Below, piece by piece: positions 59,668-62,593 of a DNA stretch of 64,000 nucleotides. Source of the DNA: Erysipelotrichales bacterium. GTDB lineage: Bacteria > Bacillota_I > Bacilli_A > RF39 > UBA660. The notes below the pieces were generated by a model. The model was not told where the DNA came from. It was given only the letters and a program-made list of their open reading frames with translations, and ran no database searches. The stretch is taken from positions 186,001 through 250,000 of the forward strand of contig JAFLUY010000001.1 of the NCBI GenBank assembly GCA_022508565.1, read 5' to 3'. Every line of letters starts with the position of its first letter. Position 1 is the first letter of the stretch. Made by a program: the position numbers and the translations under genes.

Positions 59668-59680
59668 TTACTTATCCTTT
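59659..59680. terminator. Shared terminator with both stop codons inside
   Basis: AAAGGATAA (59659-59667) and TTATCCTTT (59672-59680) pair. The yrzE stop (plus) and the dtd stop (minus) are adjacent inside this hairpin; T residues follow on the minus strand. Confidence 0.85.
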
Positions 59681-60111
59681 GAATCTATTACGATGGTTAT
59701 TGGACCATCGTTTTCTATGCTTATTAGCATATCTGCACCAAATACACCCGGATATGTTGGTACAAACTTATTTAACTCTATATTAAACTCTTCATATAGT
59801 TTAAAAGCATCTTCGCCGCGCATTGCATGAATATAGCTAGGTCTATTACCTTTTTTAGTATCAGCTTGCAAAGTGAACTGAGAAATAGATAAAATACTAC
59901 CACCTACATCTAAAATTGATTTATTCATAACATCATTTTCATCATCGAAAATACGTAAATTAACTATTTTATTTACTAAATATATCAAATCTTCATGAGT
60001 ATCTTCGACATTAATGCCAACAAGGACATTTAGCCCGTTATCTATTTTATGTATCAGTTTTCCTGCAACAGAAACACTACTGCTTTTAACTCTTTGAATT
60101 ACTACTTTCAT
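59668..60111 (-). CDS. dtd: D-aminoacyl-tRNA deacylase
   Basis: 147 residues, the standard size. SISQFTLQADTKKGNRPSY and NDGPITIVID (the Gly-cisPro region) are intact. Removes D-amino acids, and Gly mischarged on tRNA Ala. Its ribosome site AGGAGG lies in the last codons of rel, so the genes are coupled. dtd next to rel is conserved in Bacillus. Confidence 0.96.
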   Translation of the reverse strand: MKVVIQRVKSSSVSVAGKLIHKIDNGLNVLVGINVEDTHEDLIYLVNKIVNLRIFDDENDVMNKSILDVGGSILSISQFTLQADTKKGNRPSYIHAMRGEDAFKLYEEFNIELNKFVPTYPGVFGADMLISIENDGPITIVIDSKDK

Positions 60112-60112
60112 A

Positions 60113-62263
60113 TTACCTCCTAACAGCTACTATAAATGGAAGAGTAAGAAGTTCGTCAACAAATAAATCTAGATCTCTTCTATTCTGAACTTTAACTAAT
60201 AAATTAAAATTAATTACACCATTATGATTAAGTTCATTCATACTACTCACCGTAATATTTCTTAATGTAGCTTTAGTTACAATATCTAAGACTTTAGGTT
60301 CATGCGTATTAGTCTCAATTACTAATTTAGAAACATATCTCTTATCATCTACCTCATTATTTTCATTCCAGATAACTTGAACAAGTCTCTCAGTTATACC
60401 TTTCATGTTTTGACAATCACTCCTGTGAACAGTAACACCATGTCCTTTAGTAATATAACCAATAATATCGTCCCCCATGACAGGTTTACAGCAACTTGCT
60501 AAATTAACTAAGATATTATCACATCCTGAGACAATAACATCGTTTTTATAATTAATTTTAGGAACAGAACTTGTATTCATTATCTTATCAACTAATAAAT
60601 CTTGAACATTTTTCTTATCTTCAAATAACAAATTAACTATATAAACTGGTGTATATCGTAGTGAACCAATATTTAATAAAACCTCTTCAAAATTGTTTAA
60701 TTTTAAGTCTTTAATTAATTTTTCTTGATGTTCATCAGTTAAAGCATTAGTAATGCTAATTTTTTGTCTTCTAAGTTCACGTTCTAAAAGTTCTTTACCA
60801 CGAGCAACATATTCTTCCTTATCTTGCTTAGAAAAGAAAGATTTAATTTTAGCTTTTGCAGCACTAGTTTTAACAAAATTAAGCCAATCTTTATTAGGAC
60901 TAGAATTTTTGTCTGTCATTATTTTGATAATATCATTATCATTTAATGCATAATCAAGTGGTACCATTTGATCGTTAACTAAAGCACCAACTGTTGTATC
61001 TCCTACTCTTGAGTGAATTCGATATGCAAAATCTATTGGTGTAGATCCTTGCGGTAACTCTACAACATCACCTTTAGGTGTAAAGACATAAATAGAAGAC
61101 GATAATAATTCTTCTTCTATATTATTGGCAAATGTTTGATCATCTGATACTTCATCAGAATTTGCTTCAATAGTGTTTCTAAACATTTGAAGTTTTTGCT
61201 CCATAACACTTTGAATGTTTTTAGAATTTTTTTCTTTATACGACCAGTGTGATGCAACACCATGTTCAGCAATTTCATTCATTTCTTTAGTACGAACTTG
61301 TACTTCAACTGGATAACCATTAGACCCAAATACGCCTGTGTGTAAAGACTGATATGAGTTTCCTTTAGGCATCGCAATATAATCTTTAAATCTTCTTGGA
61401 ATTGGACGATATAAAGAATGAATTATACCAATAATTAAATAACAATCACTTTCTTCCTCACAAATTATTCTAATACCAAGAATATCGTAGATATCACTCC
61501 ATTTTTTACCATTAGATAATTTATTATGTAAAGACGAAACTGATTTTACTCTGCCTTTAATTTCAAATTTTAAATTATGATCTCTTAAAACATCAGTAAT
61601 TTCTTCCATCATCAGATTTAAATCTTCTTCTAATTCTTCTCTTGGAGCCGGAAGTTCGTTTTCTATATCAACATAAATTTCTGGTTTTAAAAATTTAAAA
61701 CTTAAATCTTCTAATTCACTTTTTAATTGATTAATACCAAGTCTGTGTGCAATTGGTATTAAAACATTCCATGTTTCTAAAGCTTTTTGCTTTTGTTTTT
61801 CCTTACTTAATCCCTCGGCAGTACGTAAATTATGAACACGACCTGCTAGTTTTAAGATGATTACTCTAACATCTTCAGATAAAGCTACAAGAACTTTTCT
61901 TAAATAAAGAGCAGACGACTCTGAATCGTCAGTTAAATGTAGATGATTAACTTTTGCTAAAGAAACAACAATATTCTTTACATCTTCGCCAAATAATTCT
62001 TCAATCGTCTCATAATTTGAAGAACCATGATCTATTGTTTCATGTACTAAAGCAGCAACCACTGTTGCAGCATCAGTATTAAGATTAGCAACAATTATAG
62101 CAACTTCTAAAGGATGTGTAATATAAGGATCTTTATTTTTCCTTAACATCCCTTCATGCTCAAGAGATGCAAATTTATATGCTTTTTTAATTAATTCAAT
62201 TTCTTTACTTGTATATCGGTTATCTTCACATATTTGTAATAACTCATTAAATCTTTCATTCAT
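60113..62263 (-). CDS. rel: Rel/SpoT-type (p)ppGpp synthetase with altered hydrolase site
   Basis: 716 residues. All domains of long RelA/SpoT homologues are present: HD hydrolase (about 25-180), synthetase (YDILGIRIICE, RRFKDYIAMPKGNSYQSLH, PVEVQVRT), TGS (VYVFTPKGDVVELPQGSTPI), helical and ACT. The synthetase has the RFKD motif of bifunctional Rel. In the hydrolase domain His50 and His74 are kept, but the HD Asp is Glu75, the following ED becomes DH, and the later metal Asp (KLADR) is Gly141 (KLAGR). The hydrolase is therefore probably inactive. Confidence 0.95.
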   Translation of the reverse strand: MNERFNELLQICEDNRYTSKEIELIKKAYKFASLEHEGMLRKNKDPYITHPLEVAIIVANLNTDAATVVAALVHETIDHGSSNYETIEELFGEDVKNIVVSLAKVNHLHLTDDSESSALYLRKVLVALSEDVRVIILKLAGRVHNLRTAEGLSKEKQKQKALETWNVLIPIAHRLGINQLKSELEDLSFKFLKPEIYVDIENELPAPREELEEDLNLMMEEITDVLRDHNLKFEIKGRVKSVSSLHNKLSNGKKWSDIYDILGIRIICEEESDCYLIIGIIHSLYRPIPRRFKDYIAMPKGNSYQSLHTGVFGSNGYPVEVQVRTKEMNEIAEHGVASHWSYKEKNSKNIQSVMEQKLQMFRNTIEANSDEVSDDQTFANNIEEELLSSSIYVFTPKGDVVELPQGSTPIDFAYRIHSRVGDTTVGALVNDQMVPLDYALNDNDIIKIMTDKNSSPNKDWLNFVKTSAAKAKIKSFFSKQDKEEYVARGKELLERELRRQKISITNALTDEHQEKLIKDLKLNNFEEVLLNIGSLRYTPVYIVNLLFEDKKNVQDLLVDKIMNTSSVPKINYKNDVIVSGCDNILVNLASCCKPVMGDDIIGYITKGHGVTVHRSDCQNMKGITERLVQVIWNENNEVDDKRYVSKLVIETNTHEPKVLDIVTKATLRNITVSSMNELNHNGVINFNLLVKVQNRRDLDLFVDELLTLPFIVAVRR

Positions 62264-62516
62264 TATCTTCACGTCTTTCGAATTTTTTTAAAACAAACTC
62301 CTCATATAATTTATCATCTGTATTTAAAATATCATTGACAATACTAGCTAAAGTTAGTCCTTTAGCCTTACGCCAATTATGTATTTTGTTATATTCCCAT
62401 ATATCTAATTCATTAACAAATTTAATACCATTTCTAACAAGTTCATTTTTTTTAGTTCTTAATGCTGGTTTTACTTTATTAAATAATTCATTTTGATTAT
62501 TAAATTTATTTTCCAT
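62256..62516 (-). CDS. comN: ComN-like post-transcriptional regulator
   Basis: 86 residues from the ATG at 62516 (AAGGTGATT upstream). FNKVKPALRTKKNELVRNGI, a WEYNKIHNWRK segment and SIVNDIL fit the small ComN/YrzD family, which in Bacillus controls comE mRNA placement. It overlaps rel by 8 bases and is divergent from spoVB, as part of the Bacillus relA-to-spoVB block. Confidence 0.65.
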   Translation of the reverse strand: MENKFNNQNELFNKVKPALRTKKNELVRNGIKFVNELDIWEYNKIHNWRKAKGLTLASIVNDILNTDDKLYEEFVLKKFERREDNE

Positions 62517-62593
62517 CTTAATCACCTTAATATTTTTTAAGTTTTATCATATATAATTATATAACAAATAAACTAAACTTTAAAGGAGAATTC

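Follow-up and report, generated by a model that had tools for sequence, protein, structure and literature searches.

The rel locus and its features

The window that we analyzed is a 64,000-nucleotide stretch of contig JAFLUY010000001.1 from an Erysipelotrichales bacterium, the genome of which (GCA_022508565.1) amounts to 1.69 Mb in 37 contigs and is 95.4% complete, with 1.9% estimated contamination. On the reverse strand the window carries a gene for a long RSH protein of the Rel type, with the following features:

60113..62272 (-), long Rel, a predicted (p)ppGpp synthetase with a very probably dead HD site; 719 aa from a GTG start at 62272, or 716 aa from an alternative in-frame ATG at 62263
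61733..62182 (-), pseudo-HD (HD_4) domain, residues 31-180 (Pfam PF13328, 122.7 bits), catalytic acids lost
62039..62041 (-), codon for Glu78, aligned with Asp in bifunctional Rel (HD to HE)
62027..62032 (-), codons for Asp81-His82, aligned with Glu-Asp in bifunctional Rel
61841..61843 (-), codon for Gly144, aligned with the metal-binding Asp of KLADR in bifunctional Rel
61226..61555 (-), intact synthetase domain RelA_SpoT, residues 240-349 (Pfam PF04607, 132 bits)
61304..61306 (-), codon for the synthetase catalytic Glu (EVQVRT), located by residue comparison
60914..61093 (-), TGS domain, residues 394-453 (Pfam), tRNA-sensing His420 kept
60116..60877 (-), helical, zinc-finger (RIS) and ACT region, residues 466-719 (Pfam)
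59668..60111 (-), dtd (D-Tyr-tRNA deacylase, Pfam PF02580), adjoining the long rel gene downstream and marking the ancestral rel locus

Pfam recognizes HD_4, RelA_SpoT, TGS, and AH/RIS in order, the protein matches the Rel long RSH family TIGR00691 over its full length (649 bits, cut-off 499.2), and the HD-SYN-TGS-AH/RIS-ACT architecture by which long Rels are recognized is present. His420 of the TGS domain is invariant across all long sequences checked, as are Cys594/595, His616, and Cys620 of the zinc-finger region among the relatives of the protein. The predicted structure has low overall confidence (pTM 0.45), and the pseudo-HD domain within it is predicted to fold (pLDDT mostly 77-93, with one block at 65). 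A position beside dtd is the usual location of rel in Firmicutes, and dtd adjoins the long rel gene at 30 of the 42 loci fetched. Upstream, an 89-aa ORF (62256-62525, -) matches Post_transc_reg (PF13797, 34.4 bits); its stop codon overlaps the rel start (ATGAATGA), an arrangement that suggests translational coupling between the two.

A long Rel without its catalytic acids

As the residue reference we used B. subtilis Rel (6yxa), the closest solved relative by sequence (465.7 bits), with which the HD motifs align ungapped. H53 and H77 are kept, as are R44, N148, and T151, but D78 is replaced by Glu, the E81-D82 pair by Asp-His, and D144 by Gly, so that four catalytic acids are lost and the protein departs from Rel[HS], with its intact HD site, at D78E, E81D, D82H, and D144G. 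These are the same changes that the original prediction, numbering from the ATG, had read as Glu75, DH in place of ED, and Gly141. Its second reading, of an intact synthetase on the strength of RFKD and VEVQVRT, also bears up: all catalytic and binding residues are present (G240, R241, K243, S247, K251, D264, R269, R295, K297, K304, N306, Y308, H312, E324, Q326, and R328).

The closest clade comprises 14 long Rels, every one with HE at position 78, with either Gly or Ser at 144, and lacking the ED pair; since the changes are conserved in 14/14 close relatives, they are not sequencing errors. Eight relatives from rumen and gut MAGs (L036-L043, 63-74% identical), drawn from a public genome collection and in part identical with genomes counted elsewhere in this analysis, likewise have HE at 78 and KLA[GS]R and are devoid of the ED pair. 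Intact Rels hardly vary at 46 positions of the HD domain; of these, the clade has lost D78, E81, D82, and D144, along with L61V, L76V, G104S, V105L, and one position at the N-terminus, and has retained R44, H53, H77, K141, R145, N148, R150, and T151. Judged from these alignments, the loss is targeted at the catalytic acids. In A. baumannii SpoT, substituting E82 or D83 (the ED pair) or N147 abolishes hydrolase activity, and a Mn ion organizes the site (PMC9974481); because ED-pair substitutions inactivate that enzyme and Mn organizes its site, the hydrolase site of the window's long Rel is very probably dead.

A protein that still hydrolyzes (p)ppGpp and remains bifunctional, with Glu78 (and, in this clade, Asp81) as substitute metal ligands, would be one alternative. 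The retained H53, H77, R44, N148, T151, and basic residues would suit it, the change from Asp to Glu is conservative and shared by every member of the clade, and in some relatives with HE a partner hydrolase is not apparent. We nonetheless regard it as very improbable: D144, the fourth metal ligand, has become Gly or Ser, and the E81-D82 pair is no longer present, A. baumannii SpoT loses its activity when either residue of that pair is substituted (PMC9974481), HD identity to the outgroup, taken as a ratio to synthetase identity, falls from ~0.85 in intact longs to ~0.75 in dead ones, and in some longs of the order (G083, G210, G084, and G103) nearly the whole site has been lost.

A short paralog with the mirror-image pattern

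From the damaged site the original prediction concluded that another enzyme must degrade (p)ppGpp or that synthesis must be tightly limited, and a search of the genome for a second Rel or hydrolase did return a candidate, one further HD_4 protein with the layout HD-SYN-TGS:

G000:C12:133613-135064 (= L002:793-2244), short paralog, 483 aa, contig C12 of the window's genome (G000), adjoining lysS and outside the window; found by HD_4 search

Its HD site is complete (RHHDEDDNT) and it keeps 92% of the HD-invariant positions, whereas its synthetase carries R241K, S247G, R269T, R295K, E324Q, and R328N, of which E324 is the equivalent of catalytic E323 of RelSeq (PMC7983052). The protein ends after TGS, without zinc finger or ACT. 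It is predicted as a single compact HD-SYN-TGS fold (pLDDT 92.6, pTM 0.89) that matches solved Rel catalytic domains (7oiw, Z 38.8, 324 aligned, rmsd 1.5). By sequence it thus shares with SpoT[Hs] a complete HD site and a dead synthetase site, but not the full C-terminus with zinc finger and RRM/ACT, and the pseudo-SYN and TGS domains that it carries set it apart from the small alarmone hydrolases (SAH), which consist of HD only.

Truncations of A. baumannii SpoT indicate what such an enzyme might achieve: removing RRM and zinc finger costs ~5-fold in activity, and removing TGS-HEL as well costs ~42-fold (PMC9974481). An enzyme cut after TGS may therefore still hydrolyze, perhaps weakly, HD-SYN-TGS being nearly the minimal layout with which A. 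baumannii SpoT hydrolyzes. Of the 78 short sequences that we collected across the order, 36 no longer have His420, which would be consistent with release from tRNA sensing; the short protein of the window's genome keeps His420 and therefore may not be wholly free of it.

Since the two genes lie on different contigs of a 37-contig assembly with 1.9% estimated contamination, we also considered an artifact, be it sequencing error, misassembly, or a short-copy contig binned from another organism. The chance of this seems to us vanishingly small, as the same HD changes occur in 14 independent assemblies and both genes are found together again in the congeners G161 (short 57% identical, long 76%) and G521 (55% and 73%); the GC contents of the two contigs, 0.267 and 0.280, are compatible, though not decisive.

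The same genome also encodes, beside serS on contig C34 (L003:1384-1848, +), a divergent 154-aa single-domain RelA_SpoT protein. Some of its active-site positions differ from those of RelP/RelQ, and its activity is, on this sequence, uncertain.

Distribution and origin of the pair

The family to which the window's genome belongs spans >140 genera and is the sole family seen in its order. We collected 142 long and 78 short sequences; complete genes encode about 700-750 aa for longs and about 450-550 aa for shorts. Fourteen synthetase residues (R241, K243, K251, D264, R269, R295, K297, K304, N306, Y308, H312, E324, Q326, and R328) are kept in all 142 longs, whereas in the shorts the catalytic Glu has become Gln in 72 of 78 and is retained in none. 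This residue also served in telling longs from shorts, a division that length and an HD-only tree bear out. Nearly all shorts have a full set of hydrolase residues.

The HD site of the long copy is far more varied. Among 137 family longs, 59 are intact, 12 have changes in the ED pair only, 42 lack D78 while D144 is still there, and another metal ligand is missing in 24, so that the hydrolase appears to have been lost in about half, in at least six separate events. On a tree built without the HD columns the label 'dead' needs 13 changes, of which at least six are forced by well-supported branches. In the window's closest clade the short copy is present in 12 of 14 genomes, and one more, G021, has an HD-HD_4-AAA fusion.

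Outside the order the picture is uniform: both sites are intact in all 55 Rels examined, which come from 20 other families of the class, and each genome with a match (>200 genomes) has one long Rel. A synthetase-only long Rel is thus unusual for this branch of Firmicutes, as had been supposed from the window alone.

Three side observations concern reading frames and coverage. A short and a long Rel in G089 and G199 (L068:1336-2859, +, and L105:1415-3577, -) each contain one in-frame stop, for which pseudogene, recoding, and assembly error are all candidates. In the class search, Rels of the Mollicutes-like family f4 are read through in-frame TGA (code 4), and the listed genomes of f15, also Mollicutes-like, gave no match to the Rel query.

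For the origin of the pair we relied on a careful HD-only tree of intact longs, shorts, and a class outgroup (97 rows), in which the longs of the order, the shorts, and the outgroup form one clade each (99/94, 99/95, and 100/99). Because each is a single clade, both copies go back to one duplication at the base of the order, and longs and shorts are, on this phylogeny, sisters. In trees that cover the order and its class, the longs stay together as the sister group of the shorts inside the class; the split apparently arose independently of the RelA/SpoT split of E. coli. Probably the gene was first duplicated, the short copy became hydrolase-only early on, and the HD site of the long copy, by then redundant, decayed repeatedly; other lineages would instead have lost the short copy and kept the long one bifunctional. 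The pair would accordingly be read as an order-wide, mirror-image division of labor after one duplication, and not as a peculiarity of the window's genome, which goes beyond what the original prediction had anticipated.

A proposed division of labor and the genomes that do not fit it

We consider it highly likely that the window gene encodes a hydrolase-null, ribosome- and tRNA-responsive synthetase, and that its partner is the paralog in the same genome, with a complete Mn-dependent HD domain, a dead pseudo-synthetase, and a C-terminus cut after TGS. The proposal draws directly on residue states, architecture, one duplication, repeated HD loss in the longs, and uniform loss of the synthetase Glu in the shorts, all of them read from sequence. 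Given His420 and the intact C-terminus, the long protein would sense deacylated tRNA on starved ribosomes and make (p)ppGpp, and the short protein would remove it with little or no direct ribosome control; with making and removal on two proteins, their levels and regulation can differ.

Across the order, the association between HD loss and a short copy is weak. Among genomes that are at least 90% complete, the short copy is present in 32 of 50 with a dead HD and in 22 of 52 with an intact one (Fisher p 0.03), and in phylogenetically independent pairs, of which only six were usable, the association is not significant. An order-wide rule that a dead HD entails a partner was rejected for the same reason: an HD_4 partner accompanies 17 of 19 longs with a lost metal ligand and 29 of 52 intact ones (p 0.011), but independent pairs do not support it. 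No HD_4 partner was found in 11 HD-dead genomes at least 90% complete, among them the single-contig G219, which is more than incompleteness alone should give. Genomes in which an HD-dead long Rel with intact synthetase was found without any other HD_4 protein include G219, G037, G114, G144/G248, G012, G026, and G363. That the partnerless longs are less decayed and still active was rejected as a general explanation, the relative HD identity of dead longs being the same (~0.75) with or without a partner. Many genomes, moreover, keep an intact long alongside a short copy, and the short must therefore do more than stand in for a dead HD.

These genomes bear on a further alternative, in which the long protein is a synthetase only but the short one is not its counterpart, acting instead on other nucleotides such as (p)ppApp or as a regulator, with unrelated enzymes removing the alarmone or synthesis being kept low. 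In its favor are the HD-dead genomes that have no HD_4 partner, the frequent coexistence of intact longs with a short copy, and P. gingivalis, which survives when the one RSH predicted to be its hydrolase is deleted (PMC6994654), so that at least one organism copes with a low-output synthetase and no HD hydrolase. We judge it improbable all the same, because the short protein keeps the complete alarmone-hydrolase motif set as well as its HD-invariant positions, is the sister of Rel, and is maintained throughout most of the window clade, and because A. baumannii SpoT, a closely similar hydrolase-only long RSH, is a proven (p)ppGpp hydrolase (PMC9974481). What the partnerless relatives and P. 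gingivalis (PMC6994654) do correct is the word 'must': a hydrolase-intact, synthetase-dead paralog does exist in the same genome, but that word was too strong.

A more elaborate form of the long/short division would treat the two proteins as reciprocal pseudoenzymes, the dead sites serving as nucleotide sensors that tune the live ones (for alarmone on the synthetase protein, for GDP/GTP on the hydrolase protein), with some lineages having lost the hydrolase altogether and running a one-way alarmone system; we offer this as a tentative and rather unlikely possibility. Ligand-pocket residues are kept in both dead sites, R44, H53, H77, N148, and T151 in the long and K304, N306, Y308, and H312 in the short; across the 78 shorts, Tyr308 is present in all and K304, N306, and H312 in nearly all, and an almost fixed Gln stands in place of the catalytic Glu.

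Two further kinds of protein were noticed in the order. In several genera HD_4 is fused to a P-loop AAA_28 domain (L124:2206-4164, -; L127:1021-2985, +; L126:1777-3180, +; L232:1426-2814, +; L233:542-1891, -), in proteins of 450-468 aa or, with an extra N-terminal HD domain in some, 653-655 aa; as the HD..ED..ADK motifs of HD_4 are kept, the proteins are candidates for alarmone hydrolases that carry a kinase-like domain. L310, L311, and L313 (from G271, G177, and G523) are small alarmone synthetase-like proteins of 455-466 aa in which two RelA_SpoT domains, each with an EIQVRT/EIQVKT-type motif, stand in tandem; L313 is cut by a contig end.

Comparison with known systems

We compared the pair with the described long RSH proteins that it most resembles, and found no report of such a pair in this order in the open-licence literature.

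(i) RelA[hS] of Beta- and Gammaproteobacteria has, like the window's long Rel, the layout HD-SYN-TGS-helical-zinc finger-ACT, a dead HD, an intact synthetase and TGS His, and a hydrolase paralog alongside (PMC3153485, PMC9974481). The combination that characterizes RelA[hS], a dead HD with an intact synthetase and an intact ribosome-binding C-terminus, is present in the window protein as far as residues can tell. The origins are nevertheless separate, the window protein nesting with the Rels of its own order and scoring 427.2 bits against the RelA equivalog NF008124 (cut-off 728). The HD of RelA is also more broadly changed, whereas the window protein mainly loses the catalytic acids and keeps the nucleotide-contacting residues.

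(ii) SpoT[Hs] of Moraxellaceae, as in A. baumannii, is like the short protein in being hydrolase-only, retaining a pseudo-synthetase, and partnering a synthetase-only long RSH (PMC9974481). The short protein differs in ending after TGS, with no zinc finger or RRM/ACT, and in stemming from a different duplication; the guanosine-stacking Tyr308, which it always keeps (78/78), is replaced in A. baumannii SpoT (PMC9974481). A shorter alpha6-alpha7 loop in hydrolase-specialized copies, as in SpoT[Hs], was considered and rejected, the loop being ~20 in all groups.

(iii) Rel and RshB of Bacteroides and Porphyromonas arose, like the pair of this order, by a lineage-specific Rel duplication in which the hydrolase of one copy is without key residues (PMC3153485, PMC6994654). 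The second copy there, in a different phylum, is predicted to be bifunctional, whereas the short protein of this order is synthetase-dead by sequence, which would make the split complete. That Bacteroidetes have an HD-dead long RSH (PMC6994654) also shows that such proteins, rightly linked to Gammaproteobacteria by the original prediction, are not confined there.

(iv) RshC of some Bacillus strains is, like the short protein, a second long-RSH copy in Bacilli that is truncated after TGS (PMC3153485). It is filed as [HS], of unclear origin, and known from six strains (PMC3153485); the short protein, ancestral to a whole order, sister to its Rel, and synthetase-dead, is set apart by that description.

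(v) The bifunctional Rel of Bacillota (B. subtilis, S. aureus, and S. equisimilis) has the long-Rel architecture in common with the window protein but, unlike it, an active hydrolase, with both activities in one protein.

The long/short pair would thus work like RelA[hS] and SpoT[Hs] while belonging to neither, given the separate duplication, the RelA score below cut-off, and the truncated partner.

Concluding remarks

A complete split of Rel into one protein that only synthesizes and one that only hydrolyzes is known in Gammaproteobacteria, in RelA with SpoT[Hs] of Moraxellaceae (PMC9974481), and a partial one in Bacteroidetes (PMC3153485, PMC6994654). If our reading is true, an independent complete split in an order of Firmicutes type, made up of small-genome gut bacteria, would be a replicate of that evolutionary experiment. 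Since intact, half-decayed, and fully decayed HD sites stand side by side in related genera, the order in which the losses occur can be asked, and the same genera allow one to ask why a dead catalytic domain is kept and how cells cope without an HD hydrolase. For many of these gut bacteria, the automatic label 'bifunctional GTP diphosphokinase/hydrolase' would mislead.
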